The notes beneath the pieces are model-generated. The model was given only the letters and a program-made list of their open reading frames with translations, was not told the origin of the DNA and ran no database searches. From the NCBI RefSeq assembly GCF_026151205.1, contig NC_087084.1:16280227-16344226 (forward strand): a DNA stretch of 64,000 bases, given 5' to 3'. How positions within the stretch are numbered: position 1 is the first letter of the stretch; the number at the start of each line of letters is the position of its first letter. The stretch is from Bolinopsis microptera (taxonomy: Eukaryota > Ctenophora > Tentaculata > Lobata > Bolinopsidae). Positions 29,366 to 50,895 of this stretch are shown in pieces. The position numbers and the translations under genes were made by a program.

Positions 29366-31504
29366 TCATACAGCAGATATCTCAAAGAAATCAACAAGCG
29401 TCTCAAGCTCGTAGTTATCCAGAACTTCCAGCAACATCGGAACTTTACTCTTCACATTTAGTCCCTTAAACTTGAACTTGTCAATGTAAAGATCTGTTAT
29501 CATGCCATACAACCTCTCCAGATGACAGGGCTGGAGTTTGAAGGCTGCTTGAAGCTTATCTGCGTTCTGTATAATGTCCTTGTACTCCGGGGAGAGAAAG
29601 TCCAAGTTTGGTTCGTGCATGGAAAGTTCCTTCAAAGCATCAATCAGTTGAACTTTCTTAGCAAGGAGAAGCTGCTCGTCTAACTTAGGATGTATTAGTC
29701 TAAGTGAATGGGGGATTGACTCTTCATTCAGCTCGTATGTAATGTTCACAGCAATTTTCCTCTGGGTAGCTAACTTGGTGATGACGTCCTTGAGAATGGA
29801 AATAGTGCTGATGTTATCAGATCTGAACTCAACTGCACCTTGTCTGTAATTACACTCTAACTGAGTGTCCAGGAATGTACTCTGAAAGAACATCGTTATA
29901 GACTCCCCAGAAGGACACTTGTCAGGCACCTCAGGGATACAATATCCAATCCAGGAATGCACCTCACCAAGACTGAACTTACCGCTCAGCTTCAAGGTGT
30001 TCATGGGACGTTCACTGTCGATAATGTGGGTACGGCGATGAAGAGAAAGAGGTTTGATCTGGTATTGCTTAAGTTGACAAGTCTTTGGTTGGATCCTGGG
30101 GGTGATGTACACTTGTAGTGTACCGTATTGTCCCTCTATAGACCGCACTTTTACATCCAGTCTGGTAGTGTTAGCTTGGCATCTGTATGTTGCGAGGAGG
30201 TAGTTCTTATCCTCTGGATCACATGCACTGTGGCTGACTACAGCTGAATTCCTTTCCACGTCTAGCAGATCTATGGGCACGTCACATTGCAGCAGAACGT
30301 TCTCGATTGGCATCTGAATTTCTATTGATAGCAGATAATTAGCATCGACCGGGTTTAAAGTGAACTTATCATTAACATGGAACTTTACAACCGCACTGAT
30401 AGCAGAATCCGAACCGGCAGACTTTTGATACTTTTCACGCTCGGCCAGAACTTGTCGCTTGAGATCCTCAATATCTTTCTTCAGATCATCTAGCTTCGTC
30501 TTGGCAGAGGGTGATATAATGTTCTGTGCAACGTGAGACTTTACCTGGGATGTCAAACTGATCACGTGCCCAGGGTATGTTGCTACCACTACATCTGCAT
30601 GTCCAGCAGATGTGATCAGTCCTGCTCCGATTGATGTGATGGATTCTGAAACATTCTTTGAGGTTATCAATTTGGGTTGGCCTTCCGAGATAGAGTAGAC
30701 TTCGACAGTACCATCATCTCTTGCAATCACCAATTCAGACACCCCATCGTTGTTTACATCGTATGTGTCAATTGCAGTGATTCCTCCTAGATTATTTGAG
30801 TTTGCTATTTCCCATCTGTGGCAGGGATTGTCTTTATTGACAGTACATAGACCTATGATCCCATCTTTTGTGCCATATATGAGATTATTGTGTCCGAAGC
30901 CACTCATAATATCAAATAAAGCTAAAGTTTCAGGCGAACCTGGAACTTCTGCTTCGTAGAGCAGCTCACTTCCTGATAACACTCTCAGTACCCTATCCTG
31001 ACATCCTAAAACTGGGAAAATATCCTTGCCAGAACCAGGAATACCTATCATGTCGTTAATCTTATCACAGGATAAGTAGAAGTGTGTATCCTGACAATTA
31101 GTGTACATGTTGTAGATATACTGGCCCGTTATATGTAGATCAGGTCCTGAAACGAACATAGATTTAATGCTGTCACTCAGGTTGGTTTCAAACATCAGGA
31201 ATTGCTTTCCGCGCTTTGTGAAGCCCCGCACTTCTGATCCGGAGGATACGAATATCTTTTCTTGTAACGATCCCTTGGCTCCTCCCAGCTCCAACCTTTC
31301 TACTTTAGGACCAGGCAGAGTTTTGAAGTCTACAACAGTTTCACTGCGCTTCATCTGAAAGCAGGTTAAAACTCCACTGTGGTCGGCAACCGCAACACGC
31401 TGAACCATCTTTTTTGCATTTGGAGGATTTGGAAGGACTTTCATGGACTTCATGGAAGTAGATCCGACGGTCATGAGATCAATACGGGATAGCTGGAACT
31501 CCAT
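29366..31504 (-). CDS. BBS7: BBSome complex member BBS7, full length, uninterrupted coding region
   Basis: A 712-residue protein, close to the 715 of human BBS7, that aligns along its whole length with what I know of the family. BBS7 is a core BBSome subunit that assembles with BBS2 and BBS9 and moves membrane proteins in cilia. Landmarks: the N-terminal propeller with TLPGPKVERLELGG and EVRGFTKRGKQFL, the DDGTVEVYS blade, a coiled coil around residues 335-360 (LDDLKKDIEDLKRQ), then the platform and C-terminal helical part with PRIQPKTCQ, FLDTQLECNYR, LAKKVQLIDALKEL and LERLYGMITDLYIDKFKFKG. No frameshift or stop. The vertebrate gene has many introns; here the coding region has none. The only splice signal is an acceptor 14 nt upstream of the ATG (CTTTCTGTTCAG). 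Confidence 0.97.
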   Translation of the reverse strand: MEFQLSRIDLMTVGSTSMKSMKVLPNPPNAKKMVQRVAVADHSGVLTCFQMKRSETVVDFKTLPGPKVERLELGGAKGSLQEKIFVSSGSEVRGFTKRGKQFLMFETNLSDSIKSMFVSGPDLHITGQYIYNMYTNCQDTHFYLSCDKINDMIGIPGSGKDIFPVLGCQDRVLRVLSGSELLYEAEVPGSPETLALFDIMSGFGHNNLIYGTKDGIIGLCTVNKDNPCHRWEIANSNNLGGITAIDTYDVNNDGVSELVIARDDGTVEVYSISEGQPKLITSKNVSESITSIGAGLITSAGHADVVVATYPGHVISLTSQVKSHVAQNIISPSAKTKLDDLKKDIEDLKRQVLAEREKYQKSAGSDSAISAVVKFHVNDKFTLNPVDANYLLSIEIQMPIENVLLQCDVPIDLLDVERNSAVVSHSACDPEDKNYLLATYRCQANTTRLDVKVRSIEGQYGTLQVYITPRIQPKTCQLKQYQIKPLSLHRRTHIIDSERPMNTLKLSGKFSLGEVHSWIGYCIPEVPDKCPSGESITMFFQSTFLDTQLECNYRQGAVEFRSDNISTISILKDVITKLATQRKIAVNITYELNEESIPHSLRLIHPKLDEQLLLAKKVQLIDALKELSMHEPNLDFLSPEYKDIIQNADKLQAAFKLQPCHLERLYGMITDLYIDKFKFKGLNVKSKVPMLLEVLDNYELETLVDFFEISAV

Positions 31505-34893: not shown

Positions 34894-37800
34894 ACTTTCA
34901 ACACTACTATATAACAAATAATTTGAGGTATGACACGAGGAGAAACGGCACGAAAACGAAATGTCAAGAAAAGTCCAGAGAAAACTGGTGCTACAGCGGA
35001 TGTAACTGAAGATGAAGGAGACCGTAGTTGTGTATGCAGAAGGTATATCGCAGAGGAGTTTTCATTAGCTTGTGCAACCTGTGATATGTACTGGCATTAT
35101 TGCTGTGTTGGACTGACAGGTCTGACACAAGAAGAAGGCGACCATCTGTCTAACTGGCGTTGTCAGAATTGTTTTATATCACCTTACATAAAAAGCAAAA
35201 GGACTCAGACCTCGAACCCTGATAATGAAGAAACAAAAATACTACGGAATGTTATTAGGCAGGAACTTGAGGCTCTTACACCTTGTATCAGAGGGGTTGT
35301 TGAAAACGCAGTGAACGAGAACATTCCAACTAACTTTGAGTCTGAAAAACCTAAAGAAATATCAAAGATAGTGAACCAGGCTTTCCAGTCCTTCGCTGAT
35401 GTTACTGCAAATAGTCAGAAGAAAGTTATGGAAGAAATGAGCCTACAGCAAGCTTCACAAAGTGTTGTCAGTAAAGTTCAGACTAAGATGCATATGAGCG
35501 AAATTTAAGGAAGCTCAATCTGTGTGTTTTGAATGTACCAGAGAGCAAGAAAGCTAACTCCAAGTTACGCCAGGAAGAGGACTCGAAGTTCTGCAAGGAG
35601 ACACTAAAGATTGAAAAAAGTGACTTTATCAGTTGCCATCGTGCAGGTAAAGTGGATCCAGGTAAGCCAGACTCCTGTCGGCCATTGATCATCCAGACAG
35701 CTGACGAGGAGTCAGTTAACTATTATTCCAACCATTGCATGGCAAGGGCTGGAAAGAGTCATCATACTGGATAAATCTGGATCTCTGCAGAGCAGACCGA
35801 GAGATCCGTTTTTTAGCCAGAGAAGAGAGGAAGAAGAGGCGGGAAGAAGCAGAGAAGGAAAAGACAGAGAAAAAGGTGGAGAAGAAGTAAATAGCAGTGA
35901 TAAAGAATGTAGTCAGCCCATGAATATTTTTTATACTAATGCTAATGGACTATTTAATAAAATTGATGAACTAAAATGTATTCTATCAGTTTATAAATCC
36001 ATTCATGTAATCTGCATTACAGAAACTCATTTTAATAGTGATATTTTAGATGCTGAAATTTTTATTGAAGGTTTTAATATGTTTAGAAAAGACAGAGATT
36101 TTAAAATCGATAACTCCACTAGCAACATAAGTGGAGGTGGAGGTTCTATTATTTATATTAAAAACAGTTGCAATGCTTCATTAGTGAGCTCATTTTTAAA
36201 AGCACCAGACTCTTAAGCTATTAATGTCAATACCTCTGGTGGATTGATTAGTATTTGTTGTATTTATAGGTCTACCTCTTTAAATTTAAAACAGAATAAT
36301 ATGTTATTATCTTGCATCAAGAACATATCTAGTGAAAAGAATGTTTTTGAAACCATTATCATAGGAGATTTTAACCTACCTAATGTATCTTGGGAAACTG
36401 GTAGTGTAAATAGTGGTATTTCGAGTAAGAATCAGGTTTTAATGATTCAACAAAAGTATATTGATTTATTTAATGACAGTGGTTTGACGTGGTACTTTAC
36501 TAACGAAACAACCAGAAGACGGCTTGTGAAAGATACTCTCCAGGAGAGTCTTCTTGATCAGGTTTTGTATACAAATGATGCTCTTGTCAACGGTTGTAAG
36601 ATCATTTCTCCGCTTGGCAAAAGTGATCATGTTGGGATACTAGTCGAACTGGTTGTTTCGCCCAATACTAACAAAAGTCCCAAACAAAAGATTTTAAAGC
36701 CTATTTGGGGTAAGATTTCCTCAGAAGAGTTATTTAACTTTAGTATGAATAATATTGACTGGGATTATAGTTGTACAAATAATGTTCAAGATATGTGGGT
36801 TGAACTACATGGTAAATTGGAGTCTGTTGCTGCAGCTGTCCCAGCTGCTTCGGTTTATCTCGACAACAGACCTGTCAAGTTGCCATGGAGTACAACTTCA
36901 CTTAAAAGAATGAGGAAGAACAAGGACAGAGCATGGGCTGAATTTGATATTAATCCTTCGGATATTAACTTTAGCTGTGCAAATAGCAAGCAGCGTATTT
37001 TTGAGGTGGCAGAAATTAAAGCTAAAGTAAATTATGAAAAGAAGATTACATCTAATTTAAAACAGAATTGTAAATCTTTTTACTCGTATTTGCGTAATAA
37101 ACGTCAAGTTAAGTCAAGTGTTGTTTCTTTAGATAGAGGAGATGGTACACGCACAGATAGTTCATCTGAGTCAGCTGAGGTACTTGCTAGTGTCTTTAGT
37201 TCTGTGTTTGTGCGTGAACCACCTGGCCCTCTTCCCCAAAATGAGAGTTATAACAAACAGGTTATTGATGATATGTAAATTAGCAGTTCTGATATCAAGA
37301 AGCAGCTTTTAAAGCTTAATGTTTTTAAGAGTTCTGGTCCGGATGGCGTTCATCCAAAGTTGTTGAAATCCTTAGCATACGATGAAAAGTTTGTTGAAGC
37401 TGTAACTAAATTATTTGTTAAGTGTTCAGAAACAGGAGTCCTGCCTGACATTTGGAAGACAGCATCTGTTGTAGCATTGTTCAAAAAGGGTGTTAAATCT
37501 GATCCCTTAAATTATAGACCTGTCTCATTAACTTGTATTTTGTGCAAAGTGTATGAAAAGTTGGTGAGGGCACATTTATTAACATTTTTAGAAGAACGAA
37601 TTTCAAAGCATCAGCATGGATTTGTGAAGGGTAAATCTTGTCTATCTAATCTCTTAGAGACATTTGATAATATTCTTGATATATTTAGACGAAGGTGCTC
37701 CTGTCGATCTTTTGTATTTTGATTTTAGTAAAGCTTTTGACACAGTCCCCCACTTTAGACTTCTATCTAAATTGGAGGGGTTTGGGGTCAAGAGAAAAGT

Positions 37801-38239: not shown

Positions 38240-38398
38240 GAATCCAGTTTGGGAAGAAAAAAAGGCTATATATTTTTCGGCCGCTCCGCGGCTATTATTA
38301 TTACCCATAGCCCCAGTGGAATAAATTTTAAATATGACTAGGAATCCAGTTTGGGAAGAAAAAAGGCTATATATTTTTCGGCCGCTCCGCGGCCGACT
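38204..38398 (+). repeat. Two 102-bp tandem monomers at the 5' end of LINE B
   Basis: Two near-identical units with a period of 102 bp (38204-38305 and 38306-38398). Each contains ATAGCCCCAGTGG, a TATA-like GGCTATATATTTTT and a GC-rich hairpin GGCCGC/GCGGCC. The arrangement resembles promoter monomers of some LINEs. The promoter role is inferred. Confidence 0.85.
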
Positions 38399-38789
38399 GG
38401 TCACTCAAGCGATTGAGGATGCAAAATCAGTCATCGATAAACTCCTCTCGAGCTCCAGCGCAAAGGTTGTCATCTCCCTACCCACCCCAACCCCTGGATT
38501 AATCAGTGAACTTACCAACCAATTTGTCTCAGAAATAACACAATTTGTCTCAGCTAAAAGAGGGTTAAGTGACTTTTACCGCCGCCTATATACTGTAAAC
38601 AATACTGGAAACTTTTCCCGTGCCATCTCTGCTGCTGAGTCATCCCAAGACTCTCCTAACCCGTTGAAGGAGGACCAACTCCATGTCTCAGAGTATGGTT
38701 TGAAAAAACTTTGTTTGAATATTAAACTTGGCCTATACCGTGCCTTTGGTATGAGATCCCCTAGAAAGCAGCCCCCTACAGAGCGTTAG
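38399..38789 (+). pseudogene. LINE B ORF1 remnant: C-terminal part of an SGNH/GDSL esterase
   Basis: The last ~130 residues of an SGNH hydrolase: a strand VVISLPTPTP, then DQLHVSEYGLKKLC, which matches the family's D-x-x-H block carrying the catalytic Asp and His. The Gly-Asp-Ser nucleophile block and the Asn block are missing because the 5' part was lost at the junction with the monomers. Esterase domains in CR1-like ORF1s are described (Kapitonov and Jurka, 2003). Confidence 0.65.
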
Positions 38790-38841
38790 AGTAACCCTAA
38801 AATTCAAGAAAAAACAAGTATCACGAGATCAAGTCGCTGTG

Positions 38842-41800
38842 ATGTCCTGGAACATCCAGGACAGCACAGGAGACGGGTCTAACAAATTTGAAAATAGCGA
38901 ATTTTTGTCAATCCTCAAACAAGCTAACATTCTTTGTCTCCAAGAAACAAAGAAGCAAGTTAAGTTTGAAGGATACCTCTCTTTTAATAGCAACCGCAAA
39001 AATTCACGCTCAGGAGGGGTCTGCATTCTTGCTGAAAATGGCCTAAGAAAAGGTGTCTCTAGTGTGCTTTGTAATGAATCTGATGACATTATTGTTGCTA
39101 AACTGGACAAGAACTTTTTTAAACTTGATTTTGACCTATTTTTGGTATGTTATTATATTAGCCCTGCATACTCGTCCTATGTCAAGAAGAATCCAGATTA
39201 TACTGCTAATACCTTCTCTGCTCTTGACTCTATCTGTATCAGACTACGTCAAAAGGGAGAAGTTATTATGTGTGGCGATGCAAATGCAAGAACTGGAAAA
39301 CTCCCAGACTATATCCTTTCCTGTAATGCACCTGCCATCCATGACATCTATAACGACATTGGACTCGAGCACGACATAGAAGAACCAAGAAATAATTCTG
39401 ACCTTACAATATCTGAACCCCACTGCCAACACTTTCTTGACATGGTTATCAATAACCAACTCAAAATTCTTAATGGTCGTACCCTTGGGGACACCACTGG
39501 AAAAATGACCTGTCACAAATACAATGGAAGCAGTGTGGTTGACTATTTTGTAATCACCTCATGGGCAAGAGATCATGTAAACTCTCTCCAAGTAAAAGAG
39601 TTTACATCATACTCTGATCATTGTCCATTAGTCTTGAAACTCACTACATTTGAACCATTTGTCGCAAACTTCCAGCTCCCAGACTTTTCTAACTTTCCTT
39701 GTGGCTATAAGTGGGACAGCAACACCTCCCATTCACTATTTAAAAAAGCCCTTACCTCGCCCGAAATTATCAACAATCTGGAAAGCATTGTGACAAATGA
39801 ATTTAGCAGTACTCTGGAGGGCAATCACGAACTGAACGATGCAGTCATAAAATGTCTCCACAGTGCTGCTGATATAGCCTTAAAAGTGAAAAAGCCTCCC
39901 AAAAATTCTGCCCGTAAGAAATGGTTCGACCCACAAGTCAACTCCTCGCGGCGGAACCTAAATAGGCTAGCAAACCGGCTTGGTAGTAAGCACTGTAACA
40001 GTATCCTCAGACGAGAATACTTTAAGCAACGCAACAAGCATAGCAATTTTGTAAACAGTAAGAAAGTAGCTTTCCTTAAGAAGTTAAATGAAGCTATAGA
40101 AGAAGGTCACATACTCGACTGGAAAAAATTTAAACGGCTTAAACAAGAACATGACACTAGCCCCTTACTTGACAAATTTGATTTAGCTAGCTTCCATGAC
40201 TTCTTTGCATCCCTTTATAAAAAACCAGACCAGGAGCCAGATCTCACTCACCACAATCACAAACATTACCCTGAACCACCAGATCTGGATATCCTAAATA
40301 AGCTCATGTCAGAATCTGAAGTGACCTCTGCCATCAAAAATCTCAAAAAAGGTAAAAGTTGCTCAAACGACTTGATATCCAACGAGATGCTTCAGAGCGT
40401 AACTCCGCTTTGTCTCAAAGCCATCCTCAAAAACTTCAACCACTCACTGGTCTCTGGTTACTATCCATGGCACACCAGCATCATTACTCCTATTTACAAG
40501 TCTGGCAACCCTTTCAGCCCGGACAACTACAGAGCAATAGCTGTTGGTAGCTGTATGGGTAAACTGTTTTCTAGCATCTTACTTGAGCGTCTCCTGCACT
40601 TCAAAAAGCTCTACTGCCCTGACCCAAAAGAACAACTAGGGTTCTCAAAGGGTGCTCAAACAAATGACCACGTTTTTACCCTTAAGACAGTCATTGACAA
40701 ATATACCAAGGTTAAGAAAGCTCGCCTCTATGCATGCTTTGTTGATCTAAGAAAGGCCTTTGACACTGTATGTAGGGACCTCCTTCTGCACAAAATCACA
40801 TGCCTTGGAATAACTGGAAACTTCTTCAATTGCCTAAGTGATATGTATAGAAACTCAATAGCTCATATAAAAATCTCCAAACTCTTGTCCCCTAATATTG
40901 ACATTGGAAAAGGAACAGAGCAGGGACACCCTCTATCACCGGACCTTTTTAAAATCTATATCAACGACTTGTCATCTCTCCTGAAATCTGTTGGTGATTA
41001 TCCTATTCTAGCTGACGTCCTAATATCACATCTGCTCTGGGCTGACGATCTTGTCCTACTTGCCCTAAGTCCCAAGGCCTTGCAAGACAATATAAACATC
41101 CTATTCGACTTCTGTAACTCTATGGGCCTTGAAGTAAACATTAAAAAAACCAAGATTCTCATATTCTGCCCTCCTAAAAGAAAACAATCCTATGAAACAT
41201 TCATTTTGGGAGGCCAGCCCATCCAACACACCGAAAAATACTGCTATCTTGGCATTATATTCCACAGAAATGGATCTTTTACAGCAGCAAATACTGAACT
41301 GAGGGCCAAGGCTCTCCGTGCTCTCTATGGCCTCAAAGGCAATATCGTCAAAGATGCCCTCTCTCACCGTTCCCTAAACATTCTATTTGACTCTCTAATA
41401 AAACCGATACTGCTCTATGGCTGCCAAATCTTATGTCCTCACTCAAAAACCATGAGATACCTCTCCAAAACAGATAGCAAAGCCAACCCCCAGCATACTC
41501 TCAGGTACATCTCACAAGACCACTATGAAAGATTCCACCTTAAGTTTATCAAGTGGTCCTTGTCTGTCCATTCAAAAGCATCAAATATAGGCTGCTGGGG
41601 CGAAAGTGGGCGCCACCCCCTCTTCTTTGAAGCCTGCAAACTTGCAATAGATTTCTATAGTCGTCTTGAAAGCACTGAAAATGAACTCCTCTCCGCTGCA
41701 TTTCACGAGCAGATTATGCTGGGCCTTCCTTGGTACACCAACATCTCTAATCTTCTCACCAAATATAACTTCCCCCACTCATCCTCTTCAAAATCCAAGC

Positions 41801-42330
41801 TCTCTACCCAAATCAGTCACAACATGAGGGAAGAATTTGTGGATACCTGGAAATCTGCCAAGGCATCCTCACCTAAATTAGAATTCTACAATCAAATTAA
41901 ACATGATTTTGAACCAGAAACATACTTAGGAGTGGTTAAGATCCCCGATGCTCGGAAAAGCTTAACAAGGTTTCGTATTAGCTGCCACAATCTTTACATT
42001 GAGAGGGGCCGTTACGAAACCCCCCTAGTACCAAGAGAACATCGATGGTGCACTTTTTGCTTTTTCAGCAAGGGGCTTAAGCCTATTGAGGACGAAATTC
42101 ATGTTCTAACTGACTGTTTACTCTACTCCTCAGTTAGAGAAAAATTTAACTTCCATCCCAAAAATATTACTGACCTAGCCGGTTTGCTATCCGATAAAAC
42201 ACTAGACCCTACAAAATTTACTGCCACAGCAAGAGCAATCCATTCAATTCTCTCTGTGAACGAAAATTTTACAGCCTACTATAAGAGCCCAGATTTCCAC
42301 TCAAATACTGGCCAATGCATAATGCTATAG
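38842..42330 (+). CDS. LINE B ORF2: APE endonuclease - reverse transcriptase - Cys/His motif, intact
   Basis: An uninterrupted frame of 1162 residues from the first likely ATG. The endonuclease (residues about 1-230) has SWNIQD, LCLQETKK, GDANARTG, VVDYFVIT and SDHCPLVL. The reverse transcriptase (about 480-830) has TPIYKSGNPFSPDNYRAI, ACFVDLRKAFDTV, EQGHPLSPDLFKIYI and the catalytic WADDLVLLA. Near the C-terminus CTFCFFSKGLKP followed by DEIHVLTDC forms a CCHC-type zinc motif, common at the end of these proteins. All catalytic residues I can check are present. With the 3' microsatellite tail this points to a young insertion, although its ORF1 is truncated. Confidence 0.9.
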   Translation: MSWNIQDSTGDGSNKFENSEFLSILKQANILCLQETKKQVKFEGYLSFNSNRKNSRSGGVCILAENGLRKGVSSVLCNESDDIIVAKLDKNFFKLDFDLFLVCYYISPAYSSYVKKNPDYTANTFSALDSICIRLRQKGEVIMCGDANARTGKLPDYILSCNAPAIHDIYNDIGLEHDIEEPRNNSDLTISEPHCQHFLDMVINNQLKILNGRTLGDTTGKMTCHKYNGSSVVDYFVITSWARDHVNSLQVKEFTSYSDHCPLVLKLTTFEPFVANFQLPDFSNFPCGYKWDSNTSHSLFKKALTSPEIINNLESIVTNEFSSTLEGNHELNDAVIKCLHSAADIALKVKKPPKNSARKKWFDPQVNSSRRNLNRLANRLGSKHCNSILRREYFKQRNKHSNFVNSKKVAFLKKLNEAIEEGHILDWKKFKRLKQEHDTSPLLDKFDLASFHDFFASLYKKPDQEPDLTHHNHKHYPEPPDLDILNKLMSESEVTSAIKNLKKGKSCSNDLISNEMLQSVTPLCLKAILKNFNHSLVSGYYPWHTSIITPIYKSGNPFSPDNYRAIAVGSCMGKLFSSILLERLLHFKKLYCPDPKEQLGFSKGAQTNDHVFTLKTVIDKYTKVKKARLYACFVDLRKAFDTVCRDLLLHKITCLGITGNFFNCLSDMYRNSIAHIKISKLLSPNIDIGKGTEQGHPLSPDLFKIYINDLSSLLKSVGDYPILADVLISHLLWADDLVLLALSPKALQDNINILFDFCNSMGLEVNIKKTKILIFCPPKRKQSYETFILGGQPIQHTEKYCYLGIIFHRNGSFTAANTELRAKALRALYGLKGNIVKDALSHRSLNILFDSLIKPILLYGCQILCPHSKTMRYLSKTDSKANPQHTLRYISQDHYERFHLKFIKWSLSVHSKASNIGCWGESGRHPLFFEACKLAIDFYSRLESTENELLSAAFHEQIMLGLPWYTNISNLLTKYNFPHSSSSKSKLSTQISHNMREEFVDTWKSAKASSPKLEFYNQIKHDFEPETYLGVVKIPDARKSLTRFRISCHNLYIERGRYETPLVPREHRWCTFCFFSKGLKPIEDEIHVLTDCLLYSSVREKFNFHPKNITDLAGLLSDKTLDPTKFTATARAIHSILSVNENFTAYYKSPDFHSNTGQCIML

Positions 42331-42503: not shown

Positions 42504-44279
42504 CAGCTCTTCTCCGAGGTCAAGATTAGTTTGAAATTCTTAGCATATCCATTAGAATAATTACCGGATGAATATGCAATTGTAAATTTTGAGATTAAAT
42601 AAAAAATTTCTGAGAATTCTTTGATTTATTTGAAACGCAAGGAAATATTTTTTAAACGCACTATATAGCCCCAAACTTGCTTACCAAATAGAGCGTTAAT
42701 GCTTTACTATCCCCAGCACATTGGACGATTCGCTACTTTTGAAGCGGTTTCGATCTTGTGTTGATACTTTTGAACTGACTTAGGGTCTGAAGCTTGCTTC
42801 TGCCAGGTTATATACAATCTTTGACAATGTACGATGGCAAACTTCGGATTTAAAGCGGGATAAGGATGTATAATGGAGGGGGTTATCTGGCGTAGATCTG
42901 ACTTAGTTTCGACATAGTAGTAGTAGTACTGGTAGTAGTAGTAGTTTGACATAGTAATTGACTAGACTACAATAATCTTAGGGAAAGTATACAACTCTAA
43001 AACCAAATTGTGAGTATTATTGAAATGCGGAAGCGAGCAAATCAAAAATACAATTTTAAAGTACTGTTTCACACTTGCACTGTACTCTAGATGATCTAGG
43101 ATGTGAAGCTTGCTTAAGCCTAGAACACACGAGTTCCCCTGATATAGTAGCAATGGCTAGATTCACTTCCTTCCCACTTACACTGTTGTTGAATGTTGAC
43201 TTGTAGCTACAATATTAAATTGATCGTGGAAATCGGTCTCGGATGTGAAACTAAAGGAGCCAACTTGAATCCATAAAATTTTGAATGCTAAATTTTAAAA
43301 TACCGCTCTATATTTACACCGTTCACCAGTTAATATGGCTGGGAGGATTGGGAGGATTCATAGATTGTCGATTGTTTAAGATTAACTTGATATTTTAGCG
43401 TATCAGAGCTGAAATTTTGCATGACTATTTCACATGACTATTTTACATGACTATTTTTTTCATATTCCGGGAAGTTGAGGAAGCAGGAATAGATAGCGCG
43501 CGTTTTCTGCGCGTTTTTTGGTGTCTGAATGCGCAAAAAATAGTCAAGCAATCTTATAGGTAAGAAATAGTCATGGAATCTAGGAATGCGCTCGATTCAA
43601 ACTTCGAGTCTATAAAGTAATGTAACATCGCGTGAGCCCTGAGAGCGATTATTTTAATTTAATTTTGAATTAATGTGAATATTTTTTGCACAAGAATCTT
43701 ATTTTACCGGTTATCAACAAATTTTGACTAGGTGTTAAATTCCTGGACGCCTGACTATTTGCCACTGGGCCCATAGCTCCTTGCTTTGGAATGAACAGAT
43801 CAATGAAACAAGAAATTCAATGAAACAAGAAATTTAATTTTAGCACATTTTACAGAATAAAAAGATGTAAAACAATTCATAAAATATAATGCCCATTTGG
43901 TGTATGACTTTTTGTCCTTGACTGCTAGTTTGGTTTTGGAAGGACAGGTAACTAACGGGGCAAGGAATGCGCGTGCCTGAAAGCTTTTGCACACACCGAA
44001 ACGCTAGTTCAGTTAGGTTTTTAGAGACAGGGCTCATTTTAGGACTAGAAGAAATTTGTTAGTAGACATTAGGGGTTCTGTTTATAGTTGTTACTATAGG
44101 TTGCAGTCTTGTTGTGACAAAAAGTCTACACTAAAACATGCTTTAGTTTATATTGTGTGGTTCAAGGATATAAAATGTGGCTTCAAGGTGGATATTAAAG
44201 AGCTTGCGAAAGATTATGGCCTTTGTATCAATAGTTATAATAAGCTATAAATATCTTAAACTATACAGTGCTAATTAAA
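42504..44279. other. Spacer between LINE B and LINE C
   Basis: No supportable gene. The segment 42820-42955 on the minus strand matches 27260-27360 of the foldback element core (shared TACGCCAGATAACCCCCTCC), so part of this spacer is a relic of that family. A 14-bp unit with CATGACTATTT is repeated three times near 43420-43460. Confidence 0.6.
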
Positions 44280-44433: not shown

Positions 44434-47400
44434 TTATAATGTTTGGAAAATAATATTTGTGCAGTCAAAATCTTTTACGGTCCAATCAAGCAGGGCGTGG
44501 TTATGCTGATTGGCTAATAGCGCACTTTTAAGTTTTCCTCGCAAGCACATTACACTAGTAGTAAAGTCAGTCATTCTGAACTTTGGGGTTAAAATGTTAA
44601 AAATTTTGGTTGACCTAGTGTTGTGGTTGTCAGGTGGGTCTACCTGACAGATAAGAAGGCAGGGTTTCCTCGACGAACATGTGTAACCCTCATATAGGGA
44701 TATTGGAGCACGGAATTTCATTATCTTGTAGAGCTCGAGGTAACTGTGGTATGTATAGAGATTTTGTATAGCTAGAATATTATTATGCTTGAATATCGGT
44801 TTGGTGTGTTCTTTTATGAAAAATTTTTGGTCAAGTTTCTGGTGTCCTATAGGCCTAGTACGTGCACAAGTCTTAAACTTATCAAGGTACGCCAGCCTAT
44901 CACCAAATAGTACTCTGAGACAGTACTTCTGAGCAGTAAATATTGAGCTTATACGTTGCTTAGCTGCCCCACCCCATACAGATATACAGTAGGAAAGATG
45001 TGATTCGAACAGAGTATAATATAATTGTTGATGTAGAAATTCTGGAAGGGAGCAGCGAAGTCTACATAAAGTGGATGTGGAATGATTTAGGGTTCGCTTA
45101 AGAGCTTTAATGTGATCTTCCCATGATAGGTTCTCGTCAATTATAACACCCAGAAATTTTGCGGATGAAACCTTTTTGATTGGATAGTTGTCTATAGTTA
45201 GTACAGGTTCAGGGTGTGATAAAATCTCTGACTTAGGACCTGCCATGTTGGGTTTGAAGTGTATGTAGCAGCACTTGGACATGTTTATATGTAACTTATT
45301 CGCTCTCATATAAGACTGTAATGATGACAAAAGCTCATTTCCTCGTTCATATGCCTCACGTTTTGTTTTGCCGACAACAAATATATTAGTATCATCAGCA
45401 AAGGTAACAAATGATCCTAGTTTAGAACTGTTTGTGATGTCGTTCATATAAAGAAGAAATAGGAGAGGTCCAAGAATTGAACCCTGTGGGACACCAAATT
45501 GAATAGATAGGGTATCTGATTTTTCTCCTACAACTTCAGTGTATTGTTGCCTGTTTGTTAAGTAGCTTTTTATGAGGTTATTTGCAACTCCTCTCACTCC
45601 ACATCCCTCTAATTTTATAAGAAGTGTTGAATGATCGATGGTGTCAAAAGCTTTGCTAAGGTCAATGAATATTCCTAAAACATGATTCTTAAGTTTAAGA
45701 GATTTCGTAATTAAATCTACAGAGTAATTGACTGCATGCGATGTAGAGTGAGATTTCCTAAATCCAAACTGTGTCTTCGATATAACTCCCTGGGAGCTAA
45801 CAAATCCGTATATTCTAGAATATATGAGCTTTTCAAAGATCTTACCGAAGACGGACAGTGTGGAGATAGGACGGTAGTTCTCGATTTCTTCTGGGTTACC
45901 TTTCTTATATACAGGTGTTATTTTACCAGTTTTCAGGACATCAGGAAATATACCTTGGGTCATAAGGATATTGAAGTAATTCGATAATACAGGTGCAATT
46001 ACATGAGATGACTTTTTTATTACACTTATGGGAATGTCACTGGCTTTACCATTTTCGAACTCTCTTATGATTTTCAATATTTCGTTCGAGGAGCAATCTT
46101 CTAACCTAATATTTTTTTCATTTCTTGGATTCAGGAAGTCATAGAAAGTTTTCATGGGTAATATAGGCAGGCCATTAGATAGATTATTCAGTGTCTCATT
46201 CAGCTTTGGTGCAATAGAGACAAACCAAGCATTGAATCCATTAGCAATTGCTCTTCTATCAACTATTCTTTGGTTATCAATGATAAATGGGGGCTTGGTT
46301 TGCCTCTTCTTTTTGCCTCTGAGTTCGTTAATAATTTGCCAGGTTTTCTTGCTGTTTTCACAGTTGTTTAGAATTTCGTTACAGTAATGCCAACGTTTGG
46401 CAGCTTTAATGATAGCTTTGAGCATCCTACGATAATCACTAAATACTTGGTATAGCAAGATATTACCACCAGGGTTCTTATTGGTAACGGTGTCAGACCA
46501 CTCCTTACGTAGCTCATGCTTTCTTTCTACAGACTGGATGATACTGTCTGTAATCCATGGGTTAAGTTTGGGAGTTCTTTTTGTCACTTTCGGTACCTCC
46601 AGTTTGCAGTGTTTGTCGAGTGTCTGGTCAAAACATGCCGTAAACTCATCAAATTTTGTTGAAGGAGTGAGCTGGTTTACCTTTACCTCAAGTTCAGTTA
46701 CAAAGCTTTTCAATTTGGAACTTGAGTAATCATAATAGCGGACATGTTTCTGAGGCTCTGTACTGCGAGGGGTCTCTACTGAAGTGAAGGTAAATATAGG
46801 GGCATGCTCACCAAGCCGTTCTTCAATAACACCTGATAAGACTATATTCTCAATTTTATTTGTTAAAATGTTATCGATGCAGGAACTTTTACAGTTTTGA
46901 CGAAAATGTGTTGCAATGGAGATAGTCGGGTAAAAGCCGTTTCTGTATAAAGTATCCTCAAAGAGCTGGGAACTGGTAGAAATATTAAGTATGTTTGAGT
47001 TAAAGTCTCCCAACAAATTGACAGTTTTCCCATTTAGCTGCTTTGCAAGTAGTTCCAGGGTTTCACAAAAGCTATCAAAGCAGCCATTAGGGGGTCGGTA
47101 AATGACTCCATGAACAATTTTGCTGCCTGCGCTATCTGTGGTTTCAACAAAGAGGCTCTCAATATTTGTAGTACAGTGTGATACGTTTTCTAAGACCACA
47201 GTATTTAAATGGTCAGATACATAGAGTGCAACACCTGTGCCTTTTTTCTTACCTGCCAATGTTTCTTGATAGAATCCTGTGTATGATGGAATTTGGTACA
47301 GGCCCTGCTGTGCAGGATCAGTATTGGTTTCAGCAAGACCAATCATATCAAACGAGTGCCCTATACTTTTGAGTTCAATTTGGAAGCTATCAAAGTTAGA

Positions 47401-47799
47401 TGCGTTTCCATCTATATTGTAGAATAAAGTTGATAACATAGATTTTTTTGAGGAATTGAGCTGCTTGATTGCATTTAAGAACTCGAGTTTAGAGTAGCGA
47501 CGGCAACGTTCAAGTACAAGGGCATATGATGCAATTAAGGCATCTTCCTGGTTTCTATTATCATAAAATCTATCAGAATCTATAGATTCCTCATCAGATG
47601 GAAATGGGCAGTACCGTTCCTCTGCAGAACTGGCACACTCGCAGCACATCCATAGTCCATTTTTGCATGAGTATTTAGCTGATTTGAAACACTTAGTATG
47701 GATGGCATTATTACAGTTTTCACACTCTAGTAAAGGTTGTCCGATGTTAATAGATCTACTACATGGCTCACACACATCTTTAATCATTTTCATAATCAT
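44434..47799 (-). CDS. LINE C ORF2: zinc finger - APE endonuclease - reverse transcriptase, intact
   Basis: An uninterrupted 1121-residue frame. Residues about 10-55 form a PHD-like zinc finger (CEPCSRSINIG, LLECENCNNAIHTKCF, WMCCEC), unusual at the head of ORF2. The endonuclease follows (FYNIDGNA, IGLAETNTDP, NLLGDFNSN, SCIDNILT, GEHAPIFTF), then the reverse transcriptase with TPVYKKGNPEEIENYRPI, IFIDLSKAFDTIDH, GVPQGSILGPLLFLLYM and the catalytic FADDTNIF. The C-terminal thumb/connection region has LSYCISVWGGA. Asp residues of the catalytic box and the endonuclease residues are intact. The start ATG lies 5 nt after the ORF1 stop. Confidence 0.92.
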   Translation of the reverse strand: MIMKMIKDVCEPCSRSINIGQPLLECENCNNAIHTKCFKSAKYSCKNGLWMCCECASSAEERYCPFPSDEESIDSDRFYDNRNQEDALIASYALVLERCRRYSKLEFLNAIKQLNSSKKSMLSTLFYNIDGNASNFDSFQIELKSIGHSFDMIGLAETNTDPAQQGLYQIPSYTGFYQETLAGKKKGTGVALYVSDHLNTVVLENVSHCTTNIESLFVETTDSAGSKIVHGVIYRPPNGCFDSFCETLELLAKQLNGKTVNLLGDFNSNILNISTSSQLFEDTLYRNGFYPTISIATHFRQNCKSSCIDNILTNKIENIVLSGVIEERLGEHAPIFTFTSVETPRSTEPQKHVRYYDYSSSKLKSFVTELEVKVNQLTPSTKFDEFTACFDQTLDKHCKLEVPKVTKRTPKLNPWITDSIIQSVERKHELRKEWSDTVTNKNPGGNILLYQVFSDYRRMLKAIIKAAKRWHYCNEILNNCENSKKTWQIINELRGKKKRQTKPPFIIDNQRIVDRRAIANGFNAWFVSIAPKLNETLNNLSNGLPILPMKTFYDFLNPRNEKNIRLEDCSSNEILKIIREFENGKASDIPISVIKKSSHVIAPVLSNYFNILMTQGIFPDVLKTGKITPVYKKGNPEEIENYRPISTLSVFGKIFEKLIYSRIYGFVSSQGVISKTQFGFRKSHSTSHAVNYSVDLITKSLKLKNHVLGIFIDLSKAFDTIDHSTLLIKLEGCGVRGVANNLIKSYLTNRQQYTEVVGEKSDTLSIQFGVPQGSILGPLLFLLYMNDITNSSKLGSFVTFADDTNIFVVGKTKREAYERGNELLSSLQSYMRANKLHINMSKCCYIHFKPNMAGPKSEILSHPEPVLTIDNYPIKKVSSAKFLGVIIDENLSWEDHIKALKRTLNHSTSTLCRLRCSLPEFLHQQLYYTLFESHLSYCISVWGGAAKQRISSIFTAQKYCLRVLFGDRLAYLDKFKTCARTRPIGHQKLDQKFFIKEHTKPIFKHNNILAIQNLYTYHSYLELYKIMKFRAPISLYEGYTCSSRKPCLLICQVDPPDNHNTRSTKIFNILTPKFRMTDFTTSVMCLRGKLKSALLANQHNHALLDWTVKDFDCTNIIFQTL

Positions 47800-47804
47800 T
47801 TTTA

Positions 47805-49877
47805 CTAAGTGGGGTTGTTAGACCCCACTGACTGGTTGTGTTTTCCACGTCTTGTCCGCTCTTGCCTCTCTCTCACATACACCCAATGCTTCACACATCT
47901 CACAAATTTGGTAATACCATAAACTCCTAAATGAATATCATCACCACCTCTGGTCAGGTTGGTGGCAAGGAGTCCCCTACTATCTAAGAAGTGGCCAACT
48001 CCAAGGTGCCACACACTCTGGTTGAAGTTGGCACTTAACATTTCTCCAACAAGCCGATTGAAGGTCATAATGTTTTTGTTCATTTGAGGCAATCTTGATG
48101 GGAGGACTGCTGCGACGAATATTTTGATACTTGGGCAGAGCTTTCTTATCTGTTGAATCTTCAAGTGGAGAACGTCAACCAGCTGATGGATTTCATTCTC
48201 TCCTCTAAGGTTTTCTACCCGGAGGTCATTGGTACCACAAACGATAACAACGTTGCTGTACCCAATGCAGCGACAAGGGTCAATCAAACTGACTTTACCT
48301 GCCTTGACTCTTTCACCAGGGAAAGACTGGCCCATAGTACCAGCACCACACCCAAACTTGATTGTTTTGGTGTTCGAATCTCCCATAATGAGCGTGCTTC
48401 TTTTGAATTTGTTGTTAATGGCTCTAAGGGTAATGGAAAATCGTCCGTGTATGGCCGGGTTGACTTCAGTTTTTTGGGTGGCCTTGATTCCATGCTTGAA
48501 CCAAGCTTGTGAGGAACGAGTCATAATATAGGCCGAGTTGGATTCCAGGGACATTTCAGTCATTTTTGTAGGTGAATGGCCTTCATGGACAGGTACAAAG
48601 CTTATCTTTCTTACTTCTCCTATTGAAATTGTGGCTATTTCGGAGTCAGCAAGTATTTCTTGCTCATCGTCACAGTGGAAGGGTAACATGCTTTCCTCAA
48701 CCCCAGTGCTAGGAGGGAAGTAGTTTATGAGCACAGAGTTAGGCTTGTGTGTAAGTTTGCACTGGGAGGTGACTCTATCAATAGCAGCTGCTAATGGTGG
48801 TGGGATGGCTGGAGAGGAGGGGGCGTTTGTGTCTCCAGAGTATGTGTAGCTTTCTCCATATTTAAGGACTGACCTTCCGTTCATCTGGCTGAACTTACCA
48901 GCTTCTTTGCACTCAGTCAGAAAACTGGTGACCTCATCAAGCAGATTTTTGTCTAGGATGTCTACTTGGTAGTCCTTAATCGGCGGCATTACACATTTGG
49001 GGAGGGCTACTGTTGACCTCATCTCTTGTTTGACTGCTGCTGGAGGGCCCATTTGAGGGCTTCTGGATTTTTGGAAGGAGTAAATCTCTTCACTAAGTTG
49101 CGACAGTCTTGACTCAAGTGAAGATATCTCCACGGTGGGTATGCTGTTGGATACAGCACTCGAGATGGCATCAGATACAGCTTGGATGTTTTTGCTGTAG
49201 TCGACGCTAAACTTGAGAGCTTCATCCAATTTAGACGCGGTGCTGCTGTTTGGCTTGGGATGGATTGATGTGAAGCACCATGGACATTCCCAGTACTGAA
49301 GGATGGCATCAAGACCAATCTGTTGTGGGGAGCCACTTGTAATCTGGTTTGCTCCCTTGAGGTTGCTGCAGGAGGCGTGCCAATGCTGAGAGCATCTGCA
49401 ACATTTGAGAAGCCATTCTTTGCCCTCAGAGCTTGCTCGACAGGGGCAGTTACCTTTAATGGCACGTTGCTTTGGACTTCCTTGATCTTTTTCTTCTTCT
49501 TCTGTATGGAAGGGTGGGAACGGTTTGTAAATAGGGCTCATAGGGCTATGAGGACTATCTCTTAGGCCACCAGGGTCGATTATGAGGCTTGGACTAATTT
49601 TTAGGGTCAGAGATGTAGGTGGCTGTAATGTTGATGGTCCCGGTGAAGCAACAGTAAGCAGCTTTTCAGTTGGCAGACTGTTTGATCTTCGCCGTCCTGA
49701 GATGTTGGCTGCAGGGTTCTTCTGATTAGCCTTGCTTGTGAGGGGGCTCTTTCTGTGAAGAGGATTAGTCACTTTAGGGGAATGAGGTGGAGTAGCCTTA
49801 GCCTTAACAGATGCTGCAGGAGAGTTGTTTCTGGGCGAGCGTCTGTTTTGTGGTGGTGGTGTTGGAATTCTCTTCAT
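47805..49877 (-). CDS. LINE C ORF1: PHD finger - AlkB-like 2OG/Fe(II) dioxygenase - SGNH esterase fusion
   Basis: 690 residues from the first ATG (the frame is open a further 23 codons upstream into the leader). Residues ~1-140 are a basic Pro/Ser-rich tail. A PHD finger follows at ~144-201 (CPCRASSEGKEWLLKCCRC, HWHASC, WECPWC). Residues ~292-489 match the AlkB dioxygenase fold in order: YGESYTYSG, SVLINYFPP, the HxD iron ligands in PFHCDDE (H401, D403), SEIATISIGEVR, the distal ligand His in WFKHGI (H462), and RFSITLR, the Arg-x5-Arg 2-oxoglutarate signature (R479, R485). Residues ~495-680 are an SGNH hydrolase: MGDSN (Ser501), VIVCGTNDL, and DDIHLG (Asp646, His649). All catalytic residues are present. 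PHD and esterase domains are known in CR1-like ORF1s. The dioxygenase between them is, as far as I know, unusual; an RNA or DNA demethylase role is inferred. Confidence 0.85.
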   Translation of the reverse strand: MKRIPTPPPQNRRSPRNNSPAASVKAKATPPHSPKVTNPLHRKSPLTSKANQKNPAANISGRRRSNSLPTEKLLTVASPGPSTLQPPTSLTLKISPSLIIDPGGLRDSPHSPMSPIYKPFPPFHTEEEEKDQGSPKQRAIKGNCPCRASSEGKEWLLKCCRCSQHWHASCSNLKGANQITSGSPQQIGLDAILQYWECPWCFTSIHPKPNSSTASKLDEALKFSVDYSKNIQAVSDAISSAVSNSIPTVEISSLESRLSQLSEEIYSFQKSRSPQMGPPAAVKQEMRSTVALPKCVMPPIKDYQVDILDKNLLDEVTSFLTECKEAGKFSQMNGRSVLKYGESYTYSGDTNAPSSPAIPPPLAAAIDRVTSQCKLTHKPNSVLINYFPPSTGVEESMLPFHCDDEQEILADSEIATISIGEVRKISFVPVHEGHSPTKMTEMSLESNSAYIMTRSSQAWFKHGIKATQKTEVNPAIHGRFSITLRAINNKFKRSTLIMGDSNTKTIKFGCGAGTMGQSFPGERVKAGKVSLIDPCRCIGYSNVVIVCGTNDLRVENLRGENEIHQLVDVLHLKIQQIRKLCPSIKIFVAAVLPSRLPQMNKNIMTFNRLVGEMLSANFNQSVWHLGVGHFLDSRGLLATNLTRGGDDIHLGVYGITKFVRCVKHWVYVRERQERTRRGKHNQSVGSNNPT

Positions 49878-49980
49878 GACTGTGGATTGATCACGGGGAT
49901 GTGCTGAGTGCCCTCTGGGCTGCCACCACCGGCGAATTAGCTGCACCTCAAATTATTTGTTATATAGTAGTGTTGAAAGT

Positions 49981-50895
49981 ATTAAAACATAAAAGCATGT
50001 ATTTCTAAAGCAAATCGTATGATCTGCTGGATTGTAAGGAACTTAGTTATTAGAGAAAAGGTTGTAATGATAGCTATTTATAAAGCTTTGATAAGACCTC
50101 ATCTTGAGTATTGTGTCCAATTGTGGAATCCAGTTGCGGCTCATGGAAGTTGGGGGACTGTTTTGGAGCTGGAGAGCGTCCAGAGGCGGTTTACCCGTCT
50201 TATTGATGAGGTGGGTACTCTTCCATACAGCTGCAGACTGGATATCCTCAATTTGACAACGCTGGCAGAGCGGCGAATACGTGGGGACCTTATCGAAGCT
50301 TTTAAAGTAACTAGTGGTTTGACTGAATATGGATCGGGTTTGTTCAGAATGAGCAGATCTGGTCTTAATCTAGTTTCAACCAATAGGTGTAATAAGAGTG
50401 TAACTAAAGTTAAGAATCTCCAGTCTTCTTTTCTTCCAGAGCGAGTCATTCCTTACTGGAACAAACTCCCTTCAGATGTCAAGAACTGCTCGACAGTTTT
50501 AAGCTTTAAAGTTAGATTGGAAGGATTTAAGAAAGAAATGATTTCTAAAAACAGTGTAAATGATTTTTATTTTTGGAATGTTTCGAATGAAGTTTTAGGG
50601 AAAATTGAAGGACCCAGTTATTTAAGCAATAAGGAGACACATAATGAATATCTTTGGTTTCATCCTTTTGTGACAAAGAAGTGTTTCATAAATCTTTATT
50701 CCACTGGGAAGTATTAATGAATTATTTATAGATAATGTATTAGATTTTATTAATTAATAAAATTGAATTTGATAAATTATTAATGTTGATGGAAAAATAT
50801 ATTTATTTAAATTATTTTTTTATTTAGTGCAATGATATTTTGTAGACACTTGTGATGATGTTATGTCATAATCTTTACTTACTTACTTACTTACT
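49981..50895 (+). mobile_element. LINE A, 3' part
   Basis: Resumes the reverse transcriptase C-terminal region of LINE A (CISKANRMICWIVRNLVIREK), ending at a stop at 50715-50717. An AT-rich 3' UTR and a TTAC microsatellite (50874-50894) follow and probably mark the element's end. The interruption from 38204 to 49980 holds LINE B, a spacer and LINE C. Confidence 0.82.
50019..50717 (+). pseudogene. LINE A reverse transcriptase C-terminal region
   Basis: A 232-residue frame from the first ATG; homology begins slightly earlier, near 49999. Blocks YKALIRPHLEYCVQLWNP, LESVQRRFTRLI and RRIRGDLIEAFK are the conserved tail of CR1/L2-like reverse transcriptases. VIPYWNKLPSDV and LSFKVRLEGF close the protein. 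It was part of the same protein as 37664-38203 before the insertions. Confidence 0.85.

Follow-up and report, generated by a model that had tools for sequence, protein, structure and literature searches.

An AlkB-type dioxygenase domain, intact in sequence, is present in the ORF1 of a LINE in the genome of the ctenophore Bolinopsis microptera. The element lies in the 64,000-nucleotide stretch of DNA analysed here (the window) and represents a recently active LINE family, the ORF1 of which fuses a PHD finger, a helical stretch, the AlkB-type dioxygenase and an SGNH esterase (Table 1). A preliminary description of the window had proposed a LINE with an AlkB-type domain of its own; the observation is confirmed and this interpretation of it is supported.

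Table 1. Features of the LINE on the minus strand of the window
Feature	Position in window	Strand	Basis
Whole LINE copy, from 5′ leader to 3′ repeats	about 43800 to about 49988	-	Compared with four near-identical copies
42-nt spliced leader, 5′ end of the window copy	49947..49988	-	Takes the place, from the same base on, of the TTTCAG-ending sequence in L058-L060
ORF1, 690 aa, PHD - coiled coil - AlkB - SGNH	47805..49877	-	Pfam, motifs, alignment
PHD finger, residues 144-201	49275..49448	-	Sub-threshold Pfam match and conserved Cys/His ligands
Helical stretch, probably coiled coil, residues 213-270	49068..49241	-	AF2 helices of middling pLDDT
AlkB-type Fe(II)/2OG dioxygenase domain, residues 297-492	48402..48989	-	PF13532 (3.1e-17), fold, dN/dS
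AlkB-domain ligands of ORF1: H401, D403, H462, R479, R485			
SGNH esterase domain, residues 493-675; S501, N550, D646, H649	47853..48401	-	
ORF2, 1121 aa, PHD/C1-like finger, EEP endonuclease and reverse transcriptase	44434..47799	-	Pfam
Two 16-17 bp repeats at the 3′ terminus, TTTCTTGTTTCATTGA(A)	43800..43832	-	Common to all five copies; flanks differ beyond

Architecture of the window LINE

ORF1 and ORF2 are both intact, as first described, and are separated by 5 nt. The length of ORF1 is counted from the ATG at 49877, and a GTG frame extends it upstream as far as 49946. Pfam matches ORF2 to RVT_1 with an E-value of 7.2e-37, to an endonuclease slightly below the cut-off (22.9 bits against 24.5) and to a PHD/C1-like finger below threshold. 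With an endonuclease and a reverse transcriptase (RT) in ORF2, and with a leader and short repeats rather than LTRs at its ends, the element has the make-up of an APE-type LINE. Comparison of the near-identical copies places its 3′ end at two 16-17 bp repeats, with no poly(A). Short 3′ repeats in place of poly(A) typify CR1/L2, and the window LINE shares this trait, its RT having been compared only with others of this genome. Elsewhere in the window, four tRNA matches of equal score are found at 20548-21720, three of them on one strand at a spacing of 346 bases and one inverted.

Identification of the ORF1 domains

The AlkB signature had been reported as YGESYTYSG, PFHCDDE, ATISIGEVR, WFKHGI and RFSITLR, and all five motifs occur in that order. 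ORF1 matches the AlkB profile PF13532 with 63.9 bits against a cut-off of 31.2 (E-value 3.1e-17), far beyond chance; this is the sole 2OG family listed for ORF1 by Pfam, and no TET/JBP family appears at E-values up to 10. The AlkB part of the AF2 model fits solved AlkB folds and has their double-stranded β-helix. ALKBH2 and ALKBH3 are the closest families both by sequence profile (5.5e-10 and 1.3e-9, respectively) and by fold, and plant RNA virus replicases with AlkB are also among the Foldseek matches. The metal and cofactor residues that had been read from the sequence are all in place, with H401, D403, H462, R479 and R485 invariant in an alignment of 20 rows (the window and the 19 related protein clusters discussed below), and the iron and Arg ligands are kept down to 36% identity in the AlkB domain. 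Taking together PF13532, the ALKBH2/3 profile, the fold, the kept ligands, dN/dS and the copies, the segment is almost certainly an AlkB-family domain.

The PHD finger and the esterase, also named in the preliminary description, stand by their conserved residues, while the Pfam matches to PHD and GDSL/SGNH fall below the cut-offs. The SGNH catalytic residues S501, G548, N550, D646 and H649 are present in all 20 aligned ORF1s, giving the catalytic Ser, the Gly/Asn pair and the Asp-x-x-His of a type IV SGNH-esterase ORF1, and the SGNH part of the AF2 model fits solved folds. Seven of the eight PHD Cys/His ligands occur in 16/16 rows that reach this region (P0004, P0009, P0014 and P0016 start later) and the eighth, C162, in 15/16; the parts of the model with structural matches are AlkB and SGNH.

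At the site of the duplex finger, ALKBH2 and the ALKBH2 gene of this genome have VFGKW and the window ORF1 has EAGKF. The VFG finger of ALKBH2 helps flip bases out of duplexes, and the replacement is a faint hint that the substrate of the LINE domain may be single-stranded.

Relatives, conserved ligands and selection

A search with residues 290-500 of ORF1 found, among 296 candidates, 19 protein clusters at 38-89% identity, all with PF13532. Five full-length copies on four contigs of this genome, the window copy included, are about 100% identical, which argues for recent activity of the family. Recent pick-up of the domain by a single family is ruled out by the clusters down to 38% identity and by the other layouts described below. 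With the SGNH part alone as the query, 15 ORF1 clusters were found among 357 candidates and 15/15 have PF13532; an SGNH ORF1 without AlkB was therefore seen in 0/15 matches of a search that relies on shared 5-residue words. A profile search for a free-standing AlkB relative gave 10 matches among 1843 candidates, of which eight continue into the SGNH domain of the window family, one (P0023) has the family linker and one (P0024) is a mere AlkB piece. A free-standing close relative was thus rejected, in a search whose need for shared 5-residue words means that distant free AlkBs, the host's own included, would be missed. For one cluster, P0006, the matches in this genome reach no more than 96% identity, with 64 of 1067 candidates scored. 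P0006 therefore probably comes from a near relative, and it is the sole hint here of the window family in another species.

We tabulated the ligands in 79 transposable element (TE) rows, near-duplicates and overlapping loci included, of which 76 have a letter at each iron and Arg site. D403, H462 and R479 are present in 76/76, and H401 and R485 each in 75/76, the exceptions being a Tyr at the start of fragment P0025 and a Gly in fragment P0021, respectively. Conservation is looser at N385, the 2OG-site Asn, with Ser or Thr in its place in four rows from layouts a and b (L046, its like, L049 and L051). In R-x-S-x-T-x-R, 76/76 TE rows have Ser; at this position Asn is found in the three rows from this genome that are labelled as host.

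Between the window ORF1 and five copies at 84-86% DNA identity, dN/dS is 0.10-0.12 in the AlkB domain, and it is 0.15 between the two other subfamilies; the remaining parts of ORF1 give 0.10-0.14 (SGNH), 0.10-0.13 (PHD) and 0.35-0.44 (N-terminus). These six sequences amount to three independent lineages (the window; L053-L055; L056-L057). Frame shifts are present in three of the five copies, for which codons were taken one at a time from the alignment. Within a lineage the sequences are too similar for the ratio to be informative; one such pair gives 0.73 for the entire ORF from very few changes. The AlkB part is kept by purifying selection, and a degenerate passenger domain is ruled out by dN/dS together with the retained ligands.

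Synonymous divergence is uneven along ORF1. The dS of the window against the others is 0.19-0.24 in the N-terminus and PHD and 0.83-0.93 in AlkB, so that its synonymous divergence from the sister subfamilies is about fourfold higher past the PHD (residues 231-644 against 1-230); between L053-L055 and L056-L057 the contrast is small. The cluster P0017 has a mosaic structure: it resembles the window ORF1 at 72-77% in the N-terminus and PHD and at 41-50% in AlkB and SGNH, with its breakpoint at about the place of the dS jump. The jump and the break point to a probable exchange of domains between subfamilies.

Distribution among LINE layouts and Helitrons

The assembly searched comprises 264.65 Mb in 232 contigs, of which C1-C13 are 15-26 Mb long and together make up about 258 Mb, a pattern expected of 13 chromosomes. 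The ORF1 DNA has at least 42 genome matches (40 of 93 candidates scored) and PF13532 has at least 151 (150 of 587 candidates scored), with stops inside the match in one PF13532 row among the matches listed. The AlkB domain of the window is thus no isolated case. Four layouts were assigned from the best 30 PF13532 loci and fourteen larger stretches, the two sets partly overlapping. Layout a is the window type, with a PHD-AlkB-SGNH ORF1, and the PHD is below the cut-off in L048, L049 and L051. Layout b (L043-L046) has an ORF1 of 551-646 aa with AlkB followed by SGNH and no PHD match, and adjoins an EN-RT ORF2; L043 and L046 have this ORF2 intact, L044 has it broken into two frames, and in L045 it is short. 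In layout c (L025, L047 and L050), ORF1 measures 777-843 aa and begins with AlkB close to the N-terminus, followed by a coiled coil and SGNH, and the ORF2 is a different one; in a tree of RTs of this genome only, the RTs of AlkB LINEs form at least two well-separated clades, layout c against layouts a and b. Layout d is a Helitron whose reading frame extends to as much as 3388 aa across two stretches (L039, 4383-9998; L040, 2-4546) and encodes SGNH, AlkB, DUF6570, Helitron_like_N and a PIF1 helicase; further Helitrons of this type are seen at L041/L042 and L052. An iterated profile finds SGNH in layouts a, b and c and in the Helitrons, the SGNH of L045 being a weak Pfam match only. The window itself holds a layout-c LINE at 38325-42327 (+), with an RT identical to that of L050, in which the SGNH end of ORF1 remains; this ORF1 is 5′-truncated, which accounts for the missing AlkB part.

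A spliced leader at the 5′ end

The window copy starts with 42 nt ending ...AATAATTTGAG, directly 5′ of GTGCAGCTAATTC, whereas at the same site three of the four other near-identical full-length copies, L058-L060, have in common a long sequence whose end, ...CTACTCATTTCAG, is a 3′ splice acceptor. In the remaining copy, L061, the leader is present but truncated on its 5′ side. Exact copies of the 26-base core of the leader number 1191 genome-wide and zero in the reversed control, and the same leader precedes other, different sequences, as in spliced-leader trans-splicing, here seen through genomic copies. As the leader stands in place of the acceptor-ending sequence, the genomic copies indicate that the mRNA of the window LINE is trans-spliced; read in this way, the window copy is the reverse transcript of a trans-spliced mRNA, minus the outron and any promoter there. 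With trans-spliced mRNAs, one round can be enough for an insert of this LINE to shed the region upstream of it.

The leader lies upstream of AlkB on the same strand in 19/30 LINE rows, overlapping loci being counted twice: 11/18 of layout b, 6/8 of layout c and, among three a-type stretches, L049 and L051 but not L022. In L051 its distance from the frame is about 1.1 kb, and it may be no part of the element. It precedes AlkB in 0/10 Helitron rows and 0/3 host-labelled rows. The same block stands before another LINE of the window (34894-34927, +), and the leader is a frequent start of LINE inserts in this genome; its sequence was not found in the papers searched. A full-length intronless BBS7 reading frame of 712 aa at 29366-31504 (-) is either an intron-poor gene or a retrocopy, and no leader was found beside it with up to 3 mismatches.

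Relationship to host AlkB genes

The genome has its own ALKBH2 gene (L009, 3.9e-60) and an ALKBH3-like gene (L010, 2.5e-39). Another ALKBH3-like frame, L011 (C5:22266892), has an SGNH-like frame about 700 bases downstream and may be a decayed or domesticated element. It was not retained as a host ALKBH3-like gene, which leaves L009, L010 and the two human rows as the basis of the host label in the trees. A tree of 48 AlkB domains separates all TE rows from the five labelled as host (L009, L010, L011, human ALKBH2 and human ALKBH3), with support of 93/88 that is not strong. Human ALKBH2 pairs with L009 at 100/96 and the LINE domain lies elsewhere; by this tree it is not an ALKBH2 orthologue. 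The LINE domain shares the fold and catalytic core of host ALKBH2 and ALKBH3 but forms a separate branch, is fused to PHD and SGNH, has EAG for VFG at the ALKBH2 finger, and has Ser for Asn in R-x-N-x-T-x-R.

Helitron AlkBs group among themselves at 100/100 and adjoin the window type at 94/86, the PHD-LINEs and Helitrons making up one side of the TE AlkBs at 98/97. A grouping of all LINE AlkBs that excludes the Helitrons passes the AU test (p 0.136), in a data set whose AlkBs other than those of TEs are the ALKBH2 and ALKBH3-like rows named above. The AlkB and SGNH trees, both of which carry long-branch warnings, disagree on the Helitrons, placing them beside the PHD-LINEs by AlkB and beside layout c by SGNH, and co-transfer of AlkB and SGNH to the Helitrons was set aside on account of this disagreement. 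MT-A70, to which the m6A writers belong, is matched at three or four genomic places (7 matches, 8 candidates).

Comparison with known systems

The CR1/L2 LINEs with an esterase ORF1 (types IVA/IVB, Metcalfe and Casane 2014, PMC4120745; ZfL2-1, PMC3905857) share with the window LINE an EN-RT ORF2 and an ORF1 with a coiled coil and SGNH. Unlike in the window LINE, AlkB is absent from the 448 elements in the table of PMC4120745, and none of the subgroups there combines a PHD with an esterase, though CR1_7 is given with an unnamed zinc finger and an esterase; the esterase-type ORF1 is confined there to vertebrate groups, and the word AlkB is absent from the main text. A retrotransposon AlkB with intact ligands in several subfamilies is described from orchids, where a Ty3/Gypsy element has an ALKBH5-like ORF2 with RNA demethylase activity shown in vitro (PMC9289625). 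That element differs in being an LTR element of one plant lineage with a separate ORF of the ALKBH5 group; the LINE domain is an ORF1 fusion nearest ALKBH2/3 and is spread over several types of element within a single animal genome. In fungi, DNA transposons and Helitrons likewise carry a 2OG dioxygenase across unrelated TE classes, but of the TET/JBP rather than the AlkB family, according to the account in PMC12730594. The AlkB of plant RNA viruses (Alphaflexi-, Betaflexi- and Closteroviridae, as cited in PMC9289625) is also parasite-encoded and part of a multidomain replication protein, and sits in the replicase, unlike the ORF1 domain of the LINE. An IMG/VR scan with two peptide patterns from the domain profile gave 30 pattern matches, none a relative.

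The preliminary description did not know AlkB as a standard LINE component, and among the open-access literature matches listed there is no report of AlkB in a LINE. An adenine methylation review by Iyer, Zhang and Aravind (BioEssays 2016) may cover AlkB in retroelements. A term search of PMC11203168 found no mention of AlkB.

Proposed function and alternatives

We give about even chances to the ORF1 protein being an RNP-tethered putative demethylase that acts on the element's own single-stranded nucleic acid. The protein would multimerise through its helical stretch and stay with the element's own RNA in the RNP, and the tethered AlkB domain would oxidatively strip methyl groups from that single-stranded nucleic acid, whether m6A marks or m1A/m3C adducts that stop the reverse transcriptase, on RNA and perhaps also on the first cDNA strand. 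The template would in this way stay readable and free of host marks ahead of target-primed reverse transcription, while the PHD finger may dock the RNP on chromatin and the esterase may act at membranes, as proposed for ZfL2-1. The presence of AlkB in several kinds of jumping gene suggests a use in repairing or unmarking their own nucleic acid. However, Helitrons have AlkB without an RNA intermediate, so a retrotransposition-specific substrate does not explain everything, and their AlkB argues for a substrate that both kinds have, viz., mRNA or single-stranded DNA. The in vitro activity of the orchid AlkB on RNA is a precedent (PMC9289625), and the MT-A70 matches in the genome also speak for the proposal; parts of the esterase-type ORF1 protein of ZfL2-1 form no stable complexes with oligo(A) RNA, as reported in PMC3905857, which counts against it. 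In mammals the m6A writer METTL3 helps L1 and the eraser ALKBH5 suppresses it (PMC7873242), and removal of m6A need not, therefore, favour a LINE.

The closeness of the domain to ALKBH2/3 in sequence and fold, and its presence in both LINEs and Helitrons, which share single-stranded DNA stages, would also fit a role in repair rather than counter-defence, where it only mends chemical m1A/m3C damage on LINE RNA or cDNA and on Helitron single-stranded DNA, as AlkB and ALKBH3 do. We regard this as unlikely, since the host already has ALKBH2- and ALKBH3-like genes and the elements' own copy is then unexplained. Quite improbable is an action at the DNA level, by which a PHD-led ORF1 protein would demethylate chromatin DNA (6mA or other) at target sites or on the element's own copies and so relieve silencing: AlkB occurs in LINE layouts b and c without a PHD match and the window domain lacks the VFG finger of the duplex enzyme ALKBH2, despite the PHD finger of ORF1, the further finger of ORF2 and the fungal transposon TET/JBP dioxygenases, which PMC12730594 reads as an escape from silencing.

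The Ser or Thr at N385 in four rows of layouts a and b, and the Ser that replaces the Asn of R-x-N in TE rows, could mean that the domain no longer demethylates and serves as a nucleic-acid-binding or structural module, but iron and Arg ligands in nearly all rows and a dN/dS of 0.10-0.15 make this very improbable. The chance that a host gene was fused by misassembly, or that the match is spurious, is practically nil, with nothing in its favour and the E-value, the five copies on four contigs and the 19 related clusters against it; copy number and the separate branch rule out a host gene or assembly artefact.

Beyond the putative demethylase of the window LINE, it is possible, though on the whole doubtful, that in this animal mobile elements of different classes, LINEs from two or more RT clades as well as rolling-circle Helitrons, have exchanged AlkB-SGNH as a general module of counter-defence, in answer to host base-methylation marking of parasitic nucleic acid. 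The occurrence of AlkB in several LINE layouts and in Helitrons, each time with SGNH, suggests selection across transposition mechanisms. If the counter-defence reading is true, such marking by the host would amount to a hidden branch of the defence of this animal against transposons. A LINE with its own AlkB makes it testable, with one protein and one point mutation, whether base methylation of RNA or DNA restrains retrotransposons in this kind of animal and how they respond, and AlkB-bearing elements may be a source of new RNA and DNA demethylases.
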